64,000 nucleotides of DNA from Persicimonas caeni (GCF_006517175.1 NZ_CP041186.1:1116001-1180000), one strand, 5' to 3'; shown: positions 34,725 through 43,882, counted from the first letter of the stretch. Numbers and translations: made by a program. The notes: a model not told the origin generated them from the sequence alone.

Positions 34725-36587
34725 ATGCCTTTTCGCTTGCCATTGTGGTTGGGAAGATACTGCGCCGCCTGCGGGCTGAGTCTCCTTACCTTCGTAGGAT
34801 GTGGATGTTCCGGCGAGGCCCCCCCCGACGGCGACCGAAATGTGTATCGGGCGGAGGACGCGGGCGGGCGTGACGGAGTGAACGCCGACGCATCTGTAGA
34901 TGACCTGACGACCCTGCCTCCTCCGCCCGAAAGGCCCGGGCCATTCAATCTCGATTGCCCTCCCGCCAGGCTATCTGACGAGCAGCGCCGCTGGCTTTCG
35001 CATACGCCCCACTGTTACGGCGAAGGTGAACCGCTCTTTGACGACGCGACCGAGTCATCTCAACTGGTGCACACTCACGGGTACGCAGACCACCTCACCC
35101 TCTATAAGCGCCAAGTTGGCGGCGGAGTCGCCCTCGAAGATTTCAACAACGACGGCGCCCTCGATCTGTATCTGAGCAACGCCAACGGGCCGAATCGGCT
35201 ACTGCTGAACGACGGGAACGGTCAGTTCTTCGATTGCACCGCTCAGACCGCGATGGGATTCGCCCAGGATTGGACGAACGGTGTCAGTTCAGCCGATTAC
35301 AACAATGACGGGTGGCAAGATCTCTACCTGACCAACCGGGGACCCGATCGCCTGATTCGCAACAACGGGGATGGGACGTTTACCGATGTGACCGAGCAGG
35401 CCAGCATCAGCGCCGACGCCAACAGTGGCACGGCGACGTGGGGAGATCTCGACGCCGACGGGCACCTCGATCTGTTCGTCTCGGCGCTCGCCTGGGAGTA
35501 TACCAACGGCTACGAAAGCATTGTCCCCGGACGATCGCGGCTCTATCGCAACCTGGGCGACGGTAGCTTTCGAGAAGTTCTCCACGGAGTGAGCTTTGCG
35601 CCCGGAGCCTCGTTCATCTCCCCGATGGTCGATCTGGACGACGATGGAGATCTCGACCTGCTGCATACGCAGGAATTCTACCACATCACCCAGACTCAGT
35701 ACTTTCGGAATGACGGCCCTACCTCCGATGGCTGGATTGACTGGCAGGAGCGCTTCGAGTTCCGCAGACTTCCGGTAAGTCACGCTGTGATGGGCGTAGC
35801 GCCCTTCGACATCAACCGTGACGGACGCCTCGATCTGGCGATGTCCGCACTTTGGGGGATGTCTCCGATGCGAGAAGCGTTGCTCGTCAATCGGGGCGAC
35901 ACCACGTTTGTCGACGAAGCCCCCGATCGTGGGGCGTTTGCCATGGACGCTGGGTACACTCCCGGAGAAACGCGCCGCTTTGTGAGTTGGGCGATGATCG
36001 CCGCCGACATCGACAACGATCGTGATGAGGATCTGTACGTCACCTACGGCCACTTCAGTCCGGGGGTCGACTGGGACGCCCCCCCAGAAGAGCATCCGCC
36101 CATGACACCGGACCAGCCCAACGCCCTATTGGTCAACGACGGACACGGACATTTCACACTGGCCGACGGGTCGTGTGCCGAGGACACTGGCCAAAGCCGC
36201 GCAGCAGCTGCCGGTGATGTCAATGGCGACGGGTGTGTCGATCTGGTGGTGGTCAATCAAAATGGCAACACCCGCCTCTTGCGCAACCGATGCGAAGCGG
36301 CCGGCCATGCGGTGTCGGTGCGCCTGCTCGGCACCCAGAGCAACCGCGATGCGGTCGGCGCCCGAGTCGAGTTGACTGTGGGCGACAACACGCAGCACAA
36401 GCGAGTCTTCGCCGGCTCCCGCGGAGTCCACTCCTCGCTGCCCAAACGACTGCACTTCGGACTGGGCGACGCCGACCAGGCCGATCGCCTCACGGTATGG
36501 TGGCCCTCGGGCAAGCATCAGGTATTCGGACCGATTCCGGCGGGCACGGTGGTACTTGAAGAGCCCTCCTCCTCCGACGCTCAATAA
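34725..36587 (+). CDS. CRTAC1-type FG-GAP/ASPIC-UnbV lipoprotein
   Basis: Predicted 620 aa. The N-terminus has a hydrophobic stretch ending in a lipobox-like LTFVGC. The body holds several VCBS/FG-GAP blades with calcium-binding-type loops (DFNNDGALDLYLSN, DYNNDGWQDLYLTN, DLDADGHLDLFVS, DINRDGRLDLAMSA, DINGDG-like DVNGDGCVDLVVV), making a beta-propeller. The C-terminus matches ASPIC/UnbV (SSLPKRLHFGLGDADQADRL, VWWPSGKHQVF). Probably surface- or periplasm-exposed, perhaps in adhesion; no enzyme activity is apparent. Possible alternate starts exist; the chosen ATG lacks a strong ribosome-binding site. Confidence 0.9.
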   Translation: MPFRLPLWLGRYCAACGLSLLTFVGCGCSGEAPPDGDRNVYRAEDAGGRDGVNADASVDDLTTLPPPPERPGPFNLDCPPARLSDEQRRWLSHTPHCYGEGEPLFDDATESSQLVHTHGYADHLTLYKRQVGGGVALEDFNNDGALDLYLSNANGPNRLLLNDGNGQFFDCTAQTAMGFAQDWTNGVSSADYNNDGWQDLYLTNRGPDRLIRNNGDGTFTDVTEQASISADANSGTATWGDLDADGHLDLFVSALAWEYTNGYESIVPGRSRLYRNLGDGSFREVLHGVSFAPGASFISPMVDLDDDGDLDLLHTQEFYHITQTQYFRNDGPTSDGWIDWQERFEFRRLPVSHAVMGVAPFDINRDGRLDLAMSALWGMSPMREALLVNRGDTTFVDEAPDRGAFAMDAGYTPGETRRFVSWAMIAADIDNDRDEDLYVTYGHFSPGVDWDAPPEEHPPMTPDQPNALLVNDGHGHFTLADGSCAEDTGQSRAAAAGDVNGDGCVDLVVVNQNGNTRLLRNRCEAAGHAVSVRLLGTQSNRDAVGARVELTVGDNTQHKRVFAGSRGVHSSLPKRLHFGLGDADQADRLTVWWPSGKHQVFGPIPAGTVVLEEPSSSDAQ

Positions 36588-36624
36588 AAAAAGCCGGCGG
36601 CGCTTTCATTCGCGCCGCCGGCTT
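36588..36624. terminator. Bidirectional terminator between convergent genes
   Basis: AAGCCGGCGGCGC (36591-36603) pairs with GCGCCGCCGGCTT (36612-36624), a 13-bp stem with an 8-nt loop. Preceded by an A-run, it lies between the plus-strand FG-GAP gene and the minus-strand vWA gene. Confidence 0.9.
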
Positions 36625-36647
36625 CATTCACCCCGATAAGTCGCCCA

Positions 36648-38891
36648 TCAGGGCGTCATGCCTTCTCCGCATTTGCAAGTCGGATTGGGGGGATTGCTCC
36701 CATTGCCCCAGCCGAGCACGTACTGCGTGAAGTTCTTACCTTCGATTTCGTCGCGGCTGTCAGTGGGACACGAGCAAACGTCTCGCTCGTAGCAGGCGGC
36801 AGCTTCGTAGCCTGAAGGCAGGGTGTAGCGGTCGCCGTTTTGCTTGCGCACGTTGTCCCAACTGGTGCTCAGGTTGTCGCGCACACCGTTGCAGTCATCG
36901 TCGACGCCGTTGCACACCTCGGGCATCGGCTCGAGTGGATCGCACTGCCAACTGCCACCGGAACAACTGCGTATCCCGATATTGCAACGATTGACCTCGC
37001 GTTTCATCGCCGCTTGCTCGGCCGATCCAGGGTTGTCTTCGTAATCGACGTGGCACAGCGAGCCGTCGCTCAACCCCTCGTCCACCAGACCGTCACAATC
37101 ATCGTCGATGCCGTTGCACGTCTCGGGAGACGGATCGCCCGGGGTCGCATCGCAGGCGATGGTGCCTTGGTTCGTGCAGTACTCACCTCCCTGACGCTCA
37201 CATGCGCCCACACCCGCCGAGCAGGTGCCGCCCTCGCCGACCAGATCGGTTGGGCAATTGCGTTCCGGACGACAGATGTCCATGCCCTGGTTGCAACGCC
37301 AGCGGCCCACCGGGCACTCGCATGTGCGCGCCGGCGGATTCATGTCCGAGCCGCTGCAGCCCGAGTTGGGCTGCTCACGGCACAGACACGCCAGCTGAAT
37401 GGAGACGTCGTTGCCATTGGGGTTGGTGACCAAACCGTCTCGAATCAACTGGCAATAGTCTCCCGAAGCCCCATCCGATCGGTCCAGAATTCGGATCGAG
37501 TTGTGCGCAGGAGACGCAAAATCCCAGCCTCGCGGACCACGCGGCGAGTCGATGTGGTAGACGCGCGTCGTCCCTCCCAGGTTGATCTTGAGGCAATCGT
37601 AGTCCGAACTCTTGCAGCCCTGCCATTGTTCGTCCCACGGCTGCGGACTGGTGGGCTCGGCGAACGCCGAGAGACTGAACGTGCACGAGATTTCGCGGGC
37701 AATGCCCGCCAGTGCCACCTTCAGAGCAGCCTCGTTGTCGGCTTGGTAGCTGCCGTCGCAGTTGCCGTCGAAGCTGCTCCAGTTGCCGGGATTGCTGCAG
37801 GGATCGCCGTTCGAGCATGTGCCGGTACCACCAGCCGCTGCGACCACGTCGTTGAACTCCTCGTCGGTGCCACCGCCAAAGCCCACCACGTACAACGGCG
37901 CGATGGCTCGGTGCTCGCAGGCTTTCTGGATCGTCTCGGTGTGGGCATCGGAGCCGAACGAAGCCGTCGTGGGTGCGCCGTCCGTAAGCAAGACGCCCGC
38001 CGAGCCTCCGGGAGCGTTCTTCACGGTCGCACTGTTCAGCATGCGGTGAATTGCCAGCGAAGTGGGCGTGCCCCCGGCGGGTCCGAGGCTGTTGAGCGTA
38101 TTCATGATCCGCCAGTTGGCGTTTGCACTCGCCTCGTGACGAATATTGGCCTGCGTCCCCTCGTACGTACCCAACCCAAACTCGACGGTGTCGGGGCTAC
38201 TCGCGGTCATATCGCGAGTGACCACGTCGATGGCGTCGACCGCAATGTCCCACTTCGAGCGAGTGACATTGGAGCACCACCAACTGCTCTCACGGTAATA
38301 GTCGACGCTGTCGAGCGAGTAGTTCGAGTAACGGGACGACAGGTAGTTGTCTAGACGGTCCCGGCACTGGTTGTCATTCGAGCAAGTATCGCAGTCGACA
38401 TCACCGCTGATCGATTTCGTGTTCGAGTAGGACATCGACCATCGCCTGATACCGCAGTAGTCGCCCCAGTGCTTATCCTCTGCGTAGTCCTCCAACAGAC
38501 CATCGGCTGCATTGCGGCAGTCATTGCGACTGCGGCACCAACTGCAATCAAAGGTCTTGGTCAGGCTATGCCAATCATCCCACCAGCCATCTTCCTCACA
38601 ATATTGTCCGCTGAATCGGCACGTGTGCTTGCCATAGAGCGTGGCGTCGTAATCGCATTGATTACAGGTGTTGCCCACCGTGACCTGACCGCCCATCGAG
38701 CCCGAACGGTCGAGCATCAACATCGCCTGGGGCGGAGGCAGCGTCTGAATATCGCTACCGGAGTCCGGATTACACATTTGGCCGCCGGAGTTGGTCCAAT
38801 GCCAGGCGTGAGCTTGCTGCCCTCCCACCATCAGCGCGGCGACTCCCAGACAGGCTGCGAGCAGCACATGAATTCGTTTTGTGGGTTTCAT
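36648..38891 (-). CDS. Exported vWA-domain, MopE-like Cys-rich protein (cassette copy 1)
   Basis: Predicted 747 aa. Signal peptide (VLLAACLGVAALMVGGQQAHA), then a von Willebrand A domain with a MIDAS motif (DRSGSM, residues 61-66; GGTPTS; VLLTDGAP), here interrupted by a Cys-rich insertion just after DRSGSM with many CxxC-type pairs. The C-terminal third has MopE/Myxo-type Cys-Asp repeats (CNGIDDDCDGLVDEG and CNGVDDDCNGVRDN) and a ~70-residue end domain with NGSNPPNPTCKCGEG. The second cassette copy at 40539 has the same architecture and end. Likely a metal-binding secreted or surface adhesion protein. It follows its lipoprotein partner by 75 bp. Confidence 0.92.
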   Translation of the reverse strand: MKPTKRIHVLLAACLGVAALMVGGQQAHAWHWTNSGGQMCNPDSGSDIQTLPPPQAMLMLDRSGSMGGQVTVGNTCNQCDYDATLYGKHTCRFSGQYCEEDGWWDDWHSLTKTFDCSWCRSRNDCRNAADGLLEDYAEDKHWGDYCGIRRWSMSYSNTKSISGDVDCDTCSNDNQCRDRLDNYLSSRYSNYSLDSVDYYRESSWWCSNVTRSKWDIAVDAIDVVTRDMTASSPDTVEFGLGTYEGTQANIRHEASANANWRIMNTLNSLGPAGGTPTSLAIHRMLNSATVKNAPGGSAGVLLTDGAPTTASFGSDAHTETIQKACEHRAIAPLYVVGFGGGTDEEFNDVVAAAGGTGTCSNGDPCSNPGNWSSFDGNCDGSYQADNEAALKVALAGIAREISCTFSLSAFAEPTSPQPWDEQWQGCKSSDYDCLKINLGGTTRVYHIDSPRGPRGWDFASPAHNSIRILDRSDGASGDYCQLIRDGLVTNPNGNDVSIQLACLCREQPNSGCSGSDMNPPARTCECPVGRWRCNQGMDICRPERNCPTDLVGEGGTCSAGVGACERQGGEYCTNQGTIACDATPGDPSPETCNGIDDDCDGLVDEGLSDGSLCHVDYEDNPGSAEQAAMKREVNRCNIGIRSCSGGSWQCDPLEPMPEVCNGVDDDCNGVRDNLSTSWDNVRKQNGDRYTLPSGYEAAACYERDVCSCPTDSRDEIEGKNFTQYVLGWGNGSNPPNPTCKCGEGMTP

Positions 38892-38966
38892 TGGCTATCT
38901 CTCATGCACAAACAAACAAGGAAATTACAAGTTCGTCTGGCTCTCACATGCCGATCGAGGGCCGTT

Positions 38967-40211
38967 CTACTTATACTCGAAGCTGTACTGGAAGGTCTCT
39001 CCACCGCTCGTCAGCTTGTCGACGACCACATAGTAGGTACCGTCTGCCGGAGCCACCCAATCGCCTTTCTCTGGAGACACGAACACGTCCACGCACTGGT
39101 AAGGATTCGCCCCACATCCGTTGAGAATGAACACGGCGTTGACATTGGAGTCGCCCGTCTGGGCGTCAATGTTGATGGTCTGGCCTTGAACCAAATTCGG
39201 GAAGCGAAAGACCACCTCACGCCCCGGCGTGGGTACCGTCGAGCCGTCGCCGAGCGCGCAGAACGTCTCGCCGTCGAAGTCGATGCTATTCGTGTAGGCT
39301 TTGAGATCGCCGGTAAACGTAGCCGTTGCGGTGACATCGATTGCTTGGTCGCAGAAATCGCCCAGGCAGGCCGATCCATCCGCACAACTATCGGCGCACG
39401 CAAATACCTGGCTCTGATTGCCTCCGGTGCAAATCTCCATCTCGCCGTTGGTGCACACACTTTGGCCCAATGGGCAGGATTCACCTGAAGCACTCAGCTC
39501 GATCGTAAAATCTGAGCTTCGGCCCACGTCTTGCTCGACGACCATCCATACATCGGTATTCGCCGGCACGAAGAGGCTCGATCCAGCGTCATAGCAGCGC
39601 TGCTGCGATGCCTGTTGGGTGCACGTGCTGCGAAATTCAATCTTGCCATCGGCCTGGCCCACCCACGTCTCTTGGAACTGAACGAGGCTATCCTCGGCCA
39701 CGGTGAACTTGAAGATCTTTTCGGGCCCCGTATCCCCCGAGCATGAGGCGGCCAAGACATCGGATTCGCCCAGAAAAGAGCCTGTGGCGGTCAACGTGTT
39801 CGAAGTCGTCAGCGTCCCCAGATCTTCGGCCAACTGACACTTGTTCTCCGCGGTGGCTTCAACGCATGAACCATCCATGCACAACTCGCCGACCGCACAC
39901 GGAGTCTCCGGACAAGTGGTCGGAGTATCACCGCCGTCACTGCCGTCAGAATCCGCGGCGTCTCCAGCGTCATCGGGGGTGTCCCCGTCCGTGCCGTCGG
40001 TGGCATCGGAGGCATCCGGAGTCGTCACATCTCCTGCGTCGGTCGCGCCTCCATCACTCGCGCCCCCATCGGTCCGGGAGTTGTTCCCGTTGTTATTATT
40101 GCCGCCCACAATGTTACTGGCGCCCCCCTCGGGACCGTCGTCGGATCCGCAACCGGCGACCAGTGCCATCGCGAGGAGCGTTGCGGTAATGACCTTCCAG
40201 TTTTTCTTCAT
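38967..40211 (-). CDS. Lipoprotein with two PPC-like beta domains (cassette copy 1)
   Basis: Predicted 414 aa from ATG 40211; a GTG 9 nt upstream is an alternative. The signal ends in LVAGC, followed by a long Asp/Gly/Ala-rich linker (~residues 25-95), a small Cys-rich motif (CAVGELCMDGSCVE), KCQLAEDLGTL, a beta-rich PPC-like domain (KIFKFTVAEDSLVQF...VWMVVEQDVG), a second Cys cluster (CTNGEMEICTGGNQSQVF, CADSCADG), and a second PPC-like domain ending in YYVVVDKLTSGGETFQY. The gene at 42659 encodes a clear paralogue. Probably a surface-exposed, calcium-stabilised lipoprotein that works with the vWA protein encoded just downstream. Confidence 0.9.
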   Translation of the reverse strand: MKKNWKVITATLLAMALVAGCGSDDGPEGGASNIVGGNNNNGNNSRTDGGASDGGATDAGDVTTPDASDATDGTDGDTPDDAGDAADSDGSDGGDTPTTCPETPCAVGELCMDGSCVEATAENKCQLAEDLGTLTTSNTLTATGSFLGESDVLAASCSGDTGPEKIFKFTVAEDSLVQFQETWVGQADGKIEFRSTCTQQASQQRCYDAGSSLFVPANTDVWMVVEQDVGRSSDFTIELSASGESCPLGQSVCTNGEMEICTGGNQSQVFACADSCADGSACLGDFCDQAIDVTATATFTGDLKAYTNSIDFDGETFCALGDGSTVPTPGREVVFRFPNLVQGQTINIDAQTGDSNVNAVFILNGCGANPYQCVDVFVSPEKGDWVAPADGTYYVVVDKLTSGGETFQYSFEYK

Positions 40212-40538
40212 GATATTCACTCGAGCTTCGTCCGAGGTGCAAAGCGTTGAGGAGACGAGAAAGAGGCTCCCCCGGCGAACGCCGTTGACCATAAGGAACA
40301 ACCTTTCGGTCAAACAGCTACATTAAGCTTACAAAATCGCACATCAATCTTCAACATAATGCCTGAGAAAACCTGCGCTGTATTCTCACGCCGGAGTCTC
40401 TTGATTTCGTCGAGATGAGGCGCCATGACGCCTGTGAGTAGACTGAGCCCCCCTCCTCGACGCTGCCCTTCAATAAAAAACCGGGAACGGACATCCAGTC
40501 CGCCCCCGGTCGAGGTGATTAGTTATACAGACCTGTAA
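40212..40538. other. Intergenic region between the two cassettes
   Basis: This 327-bp gap contains the terminator of copy 2 (40474-40510) and must contain the promoter of copy 1. A possible sigma-70-like pair on the minus strand is TTGATG-16-TAATGT near 40320-40350. Nothing else recognised. Confidence 0.4.
40474..40510 (-). terminator. Terminator after vWA/MopE-like copy 2
   Basis: ACCGGG (40480-40485) pairs with CCCGGT (40505-40510), with an inner GGAC/GTCC stem and a 3-nt internal loop. On the minus strand it runs into a T-rich tract. Confidence 0.8.
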
Positions 40539-42581
40539 TCACGGCCGAAGCCCCTCCCCGCACACGCAGGTGGGATCGGGAGGGTTACTGCCGTTGGCCC
40601 AACCGGCCACATAGCTCGAGAAATCGGTCCCCTCGATATCGTCGCGAGCGCCGTTGGGACACGAGCACACGTCGCGCTCGTAACAGGCCGCGGCAGCGTA
40701 TTCTGACGGCAGCGTGTAGGGGTCGCCGTTTTCATCGACGACGAGATCCCAACTCGTACTCAGGTTGTCGACGCTGCCGTTGCAGTCGTCGTCGAGGCCG
40801 TTGCACACTTCGGGCATCGCGCCAAACGGCGCGCACGCGGGCGTGCCGCTGTCGCACAAGAACTCGCCCAAATTGCACCGATTGACCTCGTTGGAAATCA
40901 TCAACTGTTCATCTGCGCATGCACCACCGACGCAGTCGACGTGGCAGAGTCCACCGATATCGAGCCCGCCCGGTGTGTTGTCATCGGCGCCGATCGCCTC
41001 GTCGGCTGCGCCGCCGCAGTCATTGTCGAGCCCGTCGCACACCTCCGGCTGCGGCGTGCCGGCCACCGCGTCGCACTCGGGTAGTCCGTCGATGCACTGG
41101 ATGGTGCCGGTATTGGCGCACTCTCCGACGCCCACAGTGCACGCATCGCCCTCGCCGGTCTTGTCGGCCGGGTTGCCGTTGTCGTTGACGCAGGGCTCGC
41201 GCGGCTCGCACACGTCCGTTCCCTGTACACATACCCAATTGCCAACCTGGCAATCACACGCCCCCGGCGGCGGGACCATATCGCCCGCCGAGCAGTTCCC
41301 ACCCGCCGTTTGAGTGCACATGCACGCACGCGTAATCGAGATGTCGTTTTCGTCGGGATCGCTCAAGTAGCCACTCTTGAGCTTCTGGCAGTAATCGTCG
41401 GCGGCGCCGTCGGCCATGTCGAGCAGTCGGATCTGGGTGTGATTCGTCGACGCCCAGGCCCATCCCACGGGCGCGTTGGTCGAACTGGTGTGGTAAATGC
41501 GTTGGTTGACCGCTCCGTTGAGCTGAATCTGCAGACAGTCATAGTTGGCGCATCCCTGATTGGGATCGTCCCACTCGGGATTTGCCGGATCGGTCGCCAG
41601 CGCACTGATATCGAAGGTGCACGCGATCTGGTTGCTGATCTGGTTGAGCGCGTTCTGAAACTCGGTCTGGTTTTCCGCCTGGTAGCTGCCCGTGCATTTA
41701 CCCGTCCAGTAGGTCGCATCGTACTGGTAGGTGCCGCTCGCACAGGGGTCGCCGCCATTGGTGCAACTGCCGGTGCCGCCGGCCCCCGCCAAAACGTCGT
41801 TGAACGCCTTGTCGGTGCCTCCGCCAAAGCCAATCACGTACAGCGGCGCCGTCGCGCGGTGCTCGCACGCAGCCTGAATCACAGCGCTGCGTGCGTTGTC
41901 GGGCTCACCGTCCGTCACCAGAATACCGGCCGCACCGGTGGGCGCGCTCTGAATGGTGGTGCTCAAGTGCGCGGTGTCGATCGCCGTAGCCATGGGCGTG
42001 CCGCCCCCCGGCGACGTGTTGTTGAGCACGGCCATGATGTCGGGGTGGCGATCCTCCGCCGCCTCCAGATGAATCGTCGCCCCAGTGCCGTGGAACAATC
42101 CCAACCCAAAGCGCACGTCGTCGGGAAGCGCTTGCGTCAGATCGAACGTAATCGCGTCGATGGCCGCGACGGCAGCCTCCCAGAGCGATTGGACCCCATC
42201 ACAACTGCGCCAACCCAAATATGCGGTGCTGTTGATGGTGTATGTCGAACCCGAACCGCTCAGGTAGTCGGACAGCATCGTCTCGCACATCAGCGCGTCG
42301 GTGCACCCGTCGCATACATACTCGTAGCCAACATAGGTGCGCCCATCGATGGAGCCGTCGAAGCTGCAAATATCTCCGCCGCAGGTCTGCGACGGGTTAT
42401 CCATCGAGCCGCTGCGGTCGAGCATGATCATCGACTGGGGAGGCTCGGCCACGCCGGTCTCGAAGCCGGCCGCCGGCGCACATGTCCCGTCGTCAAAGTT
42501 CCAGCCCAGCGCCGGCGAGACGACCAAGAATGCAGCCACCAACGAGAACCAAAAGATCTTTGTGTTCGCTTTACGCCTCAT
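40539..42581 (-). CDS. Exported vWA-domain, MopE-like Cys-rich protein (cassette copy 2)
   Basis: Predicted 680 aa from ATG 42581 (GGAG 7 nt upstream). Signal peptide IFWFSLVAAFLVVSPALG, then a vWA domain with MIDAS DRSGSM (residues 55-60), GGGTPM and GILVTDGEPD. It shares with copy 1 the segments ACEHRATAPLYVIGFGGGTD and IYHTSSTN, the MopE-like repeats CDGLDNDCGGAADE and CNGLDDDCNGSVDN, and a C-terminal domain ending NGSNPPDPTCVCGEGLRP. The Cys-rich insert after the MIDAS is shorter than in copy 1, which explains most of the length difference. Likely secreted or surface-bound; role inferred only from domains. Confidence 0.92.
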   Translation of the reverse strand: MRRKANTKIFWFSLVAAFLVVSPALGWNFDDGTCAPAAGFETGVAEPPQSMIMLDRSGSMDNPSQTCGGDICSFDGSIDGRTYVGYEYVCDGCTDALMCETMLSDYLSGSGSTYTINSTAYLGWRSCDGVQSLWEAAVAAIDAITFDLTQALPDDVRFGLGLFHGTGATIHLEAAEDRHPDIMAVLNNTSPGGGTPMATAIDTAHLSTTIQSAPTGAAGILVTDGEPDNARSAVIQAACEHRATAPLYVIGFGGGTDKAFNDVLAGAGGTGSCTNGGDPCASGTYQYDATYWTGKCTGSYQAENQTEFQNALNQISNQIACTFDISALATDPANPEWDDPNQGCANYDCLQIQLNGAVNQRIYHTSSTNAPVGWAWASTNHTQIRLLDMADGAADDYCQKLKSGYLSDPDENDISITRACMCTQTAGGNCSAGDMVPPPGACDCQVGNWVCVQGTDVCEPREPCVNDNGNPADKTGEGDACTVGVGECANTGTIQCIDGLPECDAVAGTPQPEVCDGLDNDCGGAADEAIGADDNTPGGLDIGGLCHVDCVGGACADEQLMISNEVNRCNLGEFLCDSGTPACAPFGAMPEVCNGLDDDCNGSVDNLSTSWDLVVDENGDPYTLPSEYAAAACYERDVCSCPNGARDDIEGTDFSSYVAGWANGSNPPDPTCVCGEGLRP

Positions 42582-42658
42582 ACCGCCACTCCAAGCCTTC
42601 GAAAATTCACATTCACTCATCACTCGACACAGGCACTTGCGGCCGCGACCGCCGAAGC

Positions 42659-43882
42659 TCAGGGCCCGGTGATATCGAACCCGTAGCTAAAGCTGCCGGC
42701 TGTGGTCGATTGCTTGTCGATGATGACGAAATAGCTCTCATCACTGACGCCACTCGGCACCGTCCACGCGACCGAACTGTTCGTCCCCGACGCCACGAAG
42801 GCTTCTTCGCAGACGATCGACTGCGAGCAACTCGGAGCGATGAAGATGCCGACGTTGGGCCCCGTGTTGATCGTCACCGTCTGACCGGCGTCGAGTCCCT
42901 GCAGCTCGAAGATCACTTCACGTCCGGGGGTGGACACCGTGGAGGTATCGACGGTGCACAAACTGTTATTCGAAAAGTCGATATTGGCCTGGTAGGCGCC
43001 GAGGTCGCCGCCGAAGCTCGCCGAGCCCGAAACCGCAATGGCGTTCGAGCACAGGCTCCCGGAGCACACTTCGGCGTCGGCGCAGGTGTCGGCACACGCG
43101 AATGTCTGGCTGCTCGTGCCGCCGGTGCACACCTCGAAGGTGCCGGCATCACAACGCTCGACGCCCGCCGGACACGTCTCTTCGGCCGCGCTCAACGTGA
43201 AATCAAAATCGTTGCCGCGCCCGAGCGTCTGCTCGACGACGAGGTAGACGGTCGTGCCAGCCGCCACTGACAAGTCGTTGTTGCCATCGAAGCAACTGAC
43301 ATCCTCGTCCGCCGGGCTCTCACAGGCGTTCTGGCGGAACTCGAAGACCGCGTCGAACTGTTCGGGGAAATCGCTCTCGAAGCTGACCAGGCTGTCCTGG
43401 GCGACGTCGAACTTGTAGACGACCTCGTTGCCACCGCTCGAGCAGGTTGCCGTCAGCACATCACTCGCCTCGGCGGTCGTGCTCGAGACGACAATCGGTG
43501 AGTCGAGCGTAAGCGTGCCGAGATCTTCGGCGAGTTGGCATTTGCGCGCAGGCGTCTCCTCCAGGCAGGTGCCGTCCACGCAGACCTCTCCGGCTTGGCA
43601 GCTAACCTCTTGACAGCTCGTATCGCCGGGGTCAGCGTCGGCGTCGGGCGCATCCGTCGCAGCGTCACCTTCGCTCAAATCACCGTCGGTGACCGAAGCA
43701 TCGGCGTCGCCGGTATCGCCGACATCGGGCGCATCGGCATTCCCGGCGTCGAGGCTGACGTCGTTCTCGTTATTCGGCCCTTGCACGCCGCCATTGCCGG
43801 GACCGTCTTCCTCACCGCCACATGCGGCTGTACTGCCGACAAAGAGCAACGCCGCAGCGACGATCATCCACCTTCTCGTCAT
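42659..43882 (-). CDS. Lipoprotein with two PPC-like beta domains (cassette copy 2)
   Basis: Predicted 407 aa from ATG 43882; a GTG 9 nt upstream is possible, as in copy 1. Signal (WMIVAAALLFVGSTAAC) with lipobox STAAC, Asp/Ala-rich linker, CQAGEVCVDGTCLE, KCQLAEDLGTLTLDSP, a first PPC-like domain (VVYKFDVAQDSLVSFES), a second Cys cluster (CDAGTFEVCTGGTSSQTF, CADTCADAEVC) and a second PPC-like domain ending SYFVIIDKQSTTAGSFSYG. Every element is in the same order as in copy 1. It precedes the vWA gene by 77 bp. Confidence 0.9.
   Translation of the reverse strand: MTRRWMIVAAALLFVGSTAACGGEEDGPGNGGVQGPNNENDVSLDAGNADAPDVGDTGDADASVTDGDLSEGDAATDAPDADADPGDTSCQEVSCQAGEVCVDGTCLEETPARKCQLAEDLGTLTLDSPIVVSSTTAEASDVLTATCSSGGNEVVYKFDVAQDSLVSFESDFPEQFDAVFEFRQNACESPADEDVSCFDGNNDLSVAAGTTVYLVVEQTLGRGNDFDFTLSAAEETCPAGVERCDAGTFEVCTGGTSSQTFACADTCADAEVCSGSLCSNAIAVSGSASFGGDLGAYQANIDFSNNSLCTVDTSTVSTPGREVIFELQGLDAGQTVTINTGPNVGIFIAPSCSQSIVCEEAFVASGTNSSVAWTVPSGVSDESYFVIIDKQSTTAGSFSYGFDITGP

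Follow-up and report, generated by a model that had tools for sequence, protein, structure and literature searches.

Paired lipoprotein and VWA-protein genes form a family-specific, probably adhesive surface module in Persicimonas caeni and its relatives

The genome of Persicimonas caeni YN101 consists of a single contig of 8,047,206 bp, of which a 64-kb stretch (1,116,001-1,180,000) is the window analysed here; positions within it are counted from its first base. Four genes follow one another on the minus strand of the window in the order P_A, V_A, P_B, V_B. P_A (42659..43882) encodes a lipoprotein of 407 aa and V_A (40539..42581) a secreted VWA protein of 680 aa, and the corresponding proteins of unit B, P_B (38967..40211) and V_B (36648..38891), comprise 414 and 747 aa. 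The gap between P and V is 77 bp in unit A (42582-42658) and 75 bp in unit B (38892-38966). Each V gene is followed on its 3' side by a strong intrinsic terminator with a 14-pair stem, located at 40479..40511 (minus strand, with a T run) for V_A and at 36590..36625 (minus strand) for V_B. Across the whole region, terminator-like sites were no more numerous than in shuffled sequences, and the same was found for promoter matches. A gene for an FG-GAP/UnbV-ASPIC (CRTAC1-like) secreted protein (34725-36587, plus strand) is convergent with V_B and has a terminator region in common with it; this gene is missing from the syntenic slot in Bradymonas. P_A and P_B share 39% identity over 421 positions (E 4e-82), and V_A and V_B 49% over 605 positions (E 0.0). 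By sequence they are real paralogues, with a similarity far beyond chance. The original prediction of two consecutive, clearly diverged two-gene units, with spacings of 75 and 77 bp and their own terminators, is reproduced in each of these points. Its tandem duplication describes A and B correctly as side-by-side paralogues, but two more P/V loci lie elsewhere in the genome.

The P proteins have the anatomy of tethered lipoproteins. In all 31 P proteins compared, a cysteine at the lipobox position was recognized by eye behind a hydrophobic stretch, within a canonical box in most of them. It is followed by a tether of 44-103 residues, usually rich in Asp, and by a core with invariant cysteines. 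The lipobox of P_A reads STAAC, followed by GG, and that of P_B LVAGC, followed by GS. In P_A, the acidic tether (43541..43819, minus strand; 18% Asp) extends from Cys21, the predicted lipidated residue, to the folded head; it contains a four-Cys module and is mostly predicted to be disordered. The model of P_A (mean pLDDT 76) places two PPC-like beta-sandwiches in the head, at about residues 99-234 and 282-405, with a Cys-rich linker between them, and the architecture of P_B is the same. Sandwich 1 is closest to the ColG collagen-binding/PPC domain of clostridial collagenase (Z 11.5, rmsd 2.2, 96 residues). The PPC profile (PF04151) gives P_B 18.1 bits against a cut-off of 25.9 and does not match P_A; P is therefore PPC-like in fold and no member of PF04151 by Pfam's test. 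The predicted label of PPC-like lipoprotein thus holds for the lipobox and for the modelled fold of P_A, but not at the level of the sequence match. A search of solved structures by sequence with P returned nothing significant. Unlike the clostridial collagenases, whose PPC/collagen-binding domains sandwich 1 resembles in fold, P has no protease and carries its two sandwiches and Cys-rich linker on a lipid tether.

Repeats with the P fold also make up giant proteins that are not accompanied by V. In P. caeni, proteins of 1143-2346 aa contain up to 12 tandem copies of the C-terminal half of P, with no V gene nearby (G000:C1:4013312-4020349, i.e., L141:5313-12350; C1 ~4024181-4029734; C1 ~5166044-5174063, L143). 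The giant of 2346 aa matches P starting at its N-terminal signal region. Similar P-repeat proteins are present in most relatives.

V_A and V_B carry SPI-like signal peptides, in which no lipobox was seen by eye at the cleavage region. Their VWA domains score at or slightly over the Pfam cut-offs (V_B 25.0 vs 23.8 for PF00092; V_A 27.0 vs 27 for PF13519), and the model of V_A matches VWA folds with Z up to 23.1. This model has a mean pLDDT of 66.5 and is confident in the VWA core only; the insert described below reaches 60-70, and the C-terminal part is low. The MIDAS is complete in V_A, where motif 1, DRSGS (42405..42419, minus strand; D55/S57/S59), is completed by T195 and D224, and likewise in V_B (DRSGS, 38697..38711, minus strand). 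It has been lost in five V paralogues. Both proteins end in a Cys-rich domain that is diagnostic of P-linked V and finishes with CxCGEG. In V_A, it comprises a MopE motif and CxC...CxCGEGL (40548..40886, minus strand), and its counterpart in V_B (36657..36995, minus strand) is 68% identical; both proteins stop at CxCGEGxxP.

The MopE motif (PF11617), the name of which derives from Cu binding, occurs in one or two copies in V, two of them in V_A, and is the steadiest Pfam match across the V proteins. Hundreds of unrelated surface proteins in Myxococcota contain this short DxDxDG-like loop, and it gives no evidence of MopE function. For this reason, MopE matches elsewhere in the P. caeni genome were rejected as V homologues. 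The designation as a vWA/MopE-like protein is thus sound for VWA and, with matches at or near the cut-offs, for MopE, but the MopE motif alone is not diagnostic. At another P. caeni locus (G000:C1:1247671-1259341, L144), three large proteins of 1048, 1651, and 1060 aa are encoded in tandem and match VWA and MopE; a Pfam scan of two of them also showed 14 and 21 thrombospondin type 3 repeats.

P and V constitute a genuinely linked pair, a family-specific two-gene surface module. P. caeni has four P-V units at three genomic places, the other two being a PPVV locus at 969-979 kb and a PV locus at 3636-3640 kb, together with extra paralogues of P or V parts. The PPVV locus (L021:9835-17131; G000 C1 ~971.8-979.1 kb) encodes two near-identical V proteins of ~1180 aa in tandem behind two P, each with a degenerate V-like N-terminal half, a second VWA with MIDAS, and a MYXO-CTERM tail. 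Two MopE-motif proteins are encoded next to it on the opposite strand (L021:4216-6890). The genome collection was scanned with a VWA-core alignment. In 18 genomes of the family, including Bradymonas sediminis FA350T (G008), Microvenator marinus V1718T (G005), and a genome (G018) whose P2 and V proteins match Lujinxingia vulgaris TMQ2 at 100%, P was found immediately 5' of V and in the same orientation at 30 loci, arranged as PV, PPV, or PPVV. This count includes a half-length P (G009 C532) and a V cut by the contig end (G014 C375); five more P and five more V at contig ends, with no room for a partner, stand outside it. A V follows every P that has downstream sequence in the family genomes. 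The sole clear unpaired V (G006 C102, L096:2412-4145) lies behind a RecD-like helicase gene; it has lost the MIDAS, and its C-terminus resembles a sorting tail. The predicted pairing is thereby borne out by further copies in the genome as well as by the relatives, in which homologues are not commonly single.

The confinement of the module to the family was seen with both partners. Among 379 Myxococcota genomes, no full-length P was found outside the family, only weak partial matches. Lone VWA-core matches outside it (E 1e-11 to 1e-18, ~340-900 aa) resemble generic VWA proteins and were rejected as V. In the P. caeni genome, the full 104 positions of the V C-terminal domain were matched at exactly five places (106-121 bits), which are the five P-linked V genes; the next-best match (40 bits) covers the MopE part only. 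Strong full-span matches in a phylum-wide search were confined to the family. No conserved flanking genes of the P-V loci were found beyond close relatives, which argues against a larger operon. Literature searches yielded no description of the P and V genes.

The P and V trees show matching groups. Distances in P and V are correlated (r = 0.745), a value reached by none of 20,000 free permutations and by 4 of 2,304 within-genome partner reassignments. Linkage alone would give congruent trees, so the correlation demonstrates a stable partnership, not binding. As A and B are closely related, swapping their partners was neutral in this mirror test, which is therefore silent on A-versus-B partner specificity. 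In the concatenated P+V tree, unit A joins a Bradymonas unit at 100/99, and a sister relationship of A and B is rejected (p-AU 0.039). Unit A and the Bradymonas unit also share their neighbours, which are genes resembling lysine-2,3-aminomutase (73% identical) and an epimerase (68%) and, on the far side, an RlpA-like gene (68% identical). By tree and gene order, unit A and the Bradymonas unit are syntenic orthologues, and the split of A and B is older than that of Persicimonas and Bradymonas. Bradymonas has no B; its second slot is occupied by a PPV unit of the P. caeni 969-kb type. The proposed long-term upkeep of both units is seen in one genome only, as Bradymonas keeps A alone.

The V proteins vary most beside the MIDAS. 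Across 25 V proteins, the stretch from MIDAS motif 1 to helix 1 of VWA ranges from 10 to 183 residues (11 in Bradymonas a), and the other VWA segments are mostly near constant in length. In V_A, this insert spans 79 aa, from D55 to W134 (42183..42404, minus strand), and in V_B it is Cys/Trp-rich and reaches 153 aa (38253..38696, minus strand), making it the greatest difference between A and B. Two relatives (G004a, G005a) have a second insert of ~140 residues right before MIDAS motif 3. The V proteins at L091:10103-12925 and L088:9653-12325 contain two related inserts of ~150 aa, one in MIDAS loop 1 and one before motif 3, and a Pfam scan of these inserts gave no match. From their positions, inserts build up on the face of the metal site, where a ligand would bind. 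A divergence of A and B that is greatest in the MIDAS-flanking loop is what would be expected if their ligands differ.

A different role for the metal site can be envisaged. P and V could form a periplasmic or envelope metal-binding pair, in which the MopE and Asp-rich motifs and the VWA of V sequester or sense Ca or Cu, and P is a structural lipoprotein, with no external ligand. The consistency of the MopE match across V, the acidic tether of P, and the retention in genomes of the five V without MIDAS agree with such a pair. It is nevertheless considered unlikely, given the short and widespread nature of the motif, the clustering of variation at the MIDAS face, and the MYXO-CTERM tails of V paralogues, which point to surface sorting.

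The P-V units resemble known VWA surface adhesins. The best VWA fold matches of V_A include the pilus-tip adhesins Mfa5 (Z 22.2), PilB (20.4), and SpaC (20.3), which have in common with V a VWA fold with MIDAS (Z 20-22). By sequence, the V profile also finds adhesive VWA domains in LapA, Plasmodium TRAP, and a mussel byssus protein. The pilus-tip class, too, has inserts close to the MIDAS face, and VWA folds have non-adhesive roles as well. Another reading considered was a T4P or Tad pilus with V at its tip, in the manner of PilY1 or of a Kil tip, and with P as the assembly lipoprotein. The VWA fold matches among tip adhesins of Gram-positive and type V pili fit this proposal, as does the VWA present in Myxococcus PilY1.3 (PMC9109919). 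However, V_A, V_B, and eight V paralogues gave no Pfam match to the PilY1 C-terminal domain (PF05567-type) or to pilins, conserved minor-pilin neighbours are missing, and Kil tips are formed by three pilins (PMC12075869), which makes a pilus tip highly improbable. Unlike Mfa5, SpaC, and PilB, the P-V units have no pilin or sortase pilus parts, and the homology does not extend overall beyond VWA.

A second comparison is with CglB of Myxococcus focal adhesions, like V an exported Myxococcota VWA protein, with weak local similarity in the VWA region. CglB is a lipoprotein with an N-terminal lipoprotein signal; V, with its SPI-like signal, is not, and differs further in its inserts, MopE motifs, and C-terminal Cys domain. 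To our knowledge, P has no counterpart in the Glt set. V as the Bradymonadales counterpart of CglB in gliding, with P as a Glt-like partner, would accord with the sub-threshold NCBIfam matches (24 bits for V_B and, as the family's highest, 49 bits for the V of Bradymonas G008b) and with CglB being itself a VWA surface adhesin (PMC13104615). Still, this was judged improbable, since other VWA proteins outscore V_A on CglB, no conserved neighbours would fit a glt set, and the 200-bit cut-off was reached by no protein in 24 relatives. Membership of CglB (NF033757) was rejected on the same equivalog cut-off (V_B 24.2 bits; 0/24 genomes over it).

Sorting signals locate the V family at the cell surface. 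Three V paralogues of P. caeni, V1 and V2 of the 969-kb locus and the V at 3636-3640 kb, have C-termini that score above the cut-off of the MYXO-CTERM model (TIGR03901). V_A and V_B have no such Cys-TM-Arg signal, and the terminators start within 30 bases of their ends. A Cys-TM-basic tail is present in all five MIDAS-less V (weaker in G002 and G006c), four of which sit behind a P. This persistence of pairing indicates that the MIDAS is not needed for it and is left free for another ligand; as these V keep the C-terminal domain, that domain is a likelier site for P than the MIDAS. Tailed V would be self-anchored and still have a P, which suggests that P is more than a mere anchor. Myxococcus TraA is released via type II secretion when it lacks its MYXO-CTERM tail (PMC11980579), and a T2SS is encoded in the P. 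caeni genome (PMC7188933). By analogy, release would be expected for V_A and V_B if nothing held them, and P would be the natural holder. A surface location is very likely. MYXO-CTERM receptors such as TraA, with its partner TraB, are comparable in the tail of several V paralogues and in the two-gene layout; unlike them, V_A and V_B are tail-less and their partner is a PPC-like lipoprotein. By the tests made, V is thus neither CglB nor PilY1, and V_A and V_B are not MYXO-CTERM proteins either.

The explanation preferred overall, held with evenly balanced confidence, is that each P-V unit is a two-part adhesin, tethered by P and binding through the MIDAS. P would be an outer-membrane lipoprotein, the acidic tether of which bears a head of two PPC-like sandwiches. 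V would be exported by Sec and then probably rely on the type II system to cross the outer membrane; this route and the identity of the ligand are what we infer. At the surface, P may hold V via the conserved C-terminal Cys-rich domain, a metal at the MIDAS may allow the VWA to bind an external ligand, and the hypervariable insert may set ligand specificity. As old paralogues, A and B probably recognize different ligands (prey, kin, or matrix). A physical P-V complex seems fairly probable, and adhesion by the MIDAS, as judged from its residues, equally so. The suggested metal-dependent adhesion in a predatory or social lifestyle is in line with the intact MIDAS, on the residues of which metal dependence rests, and with P. 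caeni being a marine, contact-dependent predator, as predation by the group needs contact (PMC11509652, PMC7188933). A role of the units in predation is possible, if tentative.

P and V, or the V of neighbouring cells, could also be trans-binding receptors in kin recognition, with paralogue divergence reflecting strain identity. P. caeni and relatives display species-level incompatibility in colony merger without T6SS (PMC11509652), MYXO-CTERM receptors such as TraA act in this way in Myxococcus (PMC11980579), and the PV units differ strongly between genera. On the other hand, A and B are each a single sequence here, and identity between species is too low for inferring allelism; kin recognition is accordingly rated as quite unlikely.

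It has been suggested that predation by Bradymonadales must begin with adhesion to the prey (PMC11509652), and no dedicated Bradymonadales adhesin was described in the literature searched. Being family-wide, tightly paired, and variable where a ligand would sit, the P-V units make concrete candidates for the recognition of prey or kin and can be tested in the cultured P. caeni and B. sediminis. A more speculative and rather doubtful reading is that they give Bradymonadales a repertoire of paired recognition receptors that is specific to the lineage and diversifying. If true, a common anchoring by P and the V C-terminal domain would display VWA heads whose MIDAS-side inserts are exchangeable, and which prey or kin are gripped would depend on the units present in a genome. 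P and V probably represent an undescribed adhesive surface complex, the two genes of which travel together throughout the family. If borne out, they would add a lipoprotein-partnered scheme to the known displays of VWA adhesins on Gram-negative surfaces.
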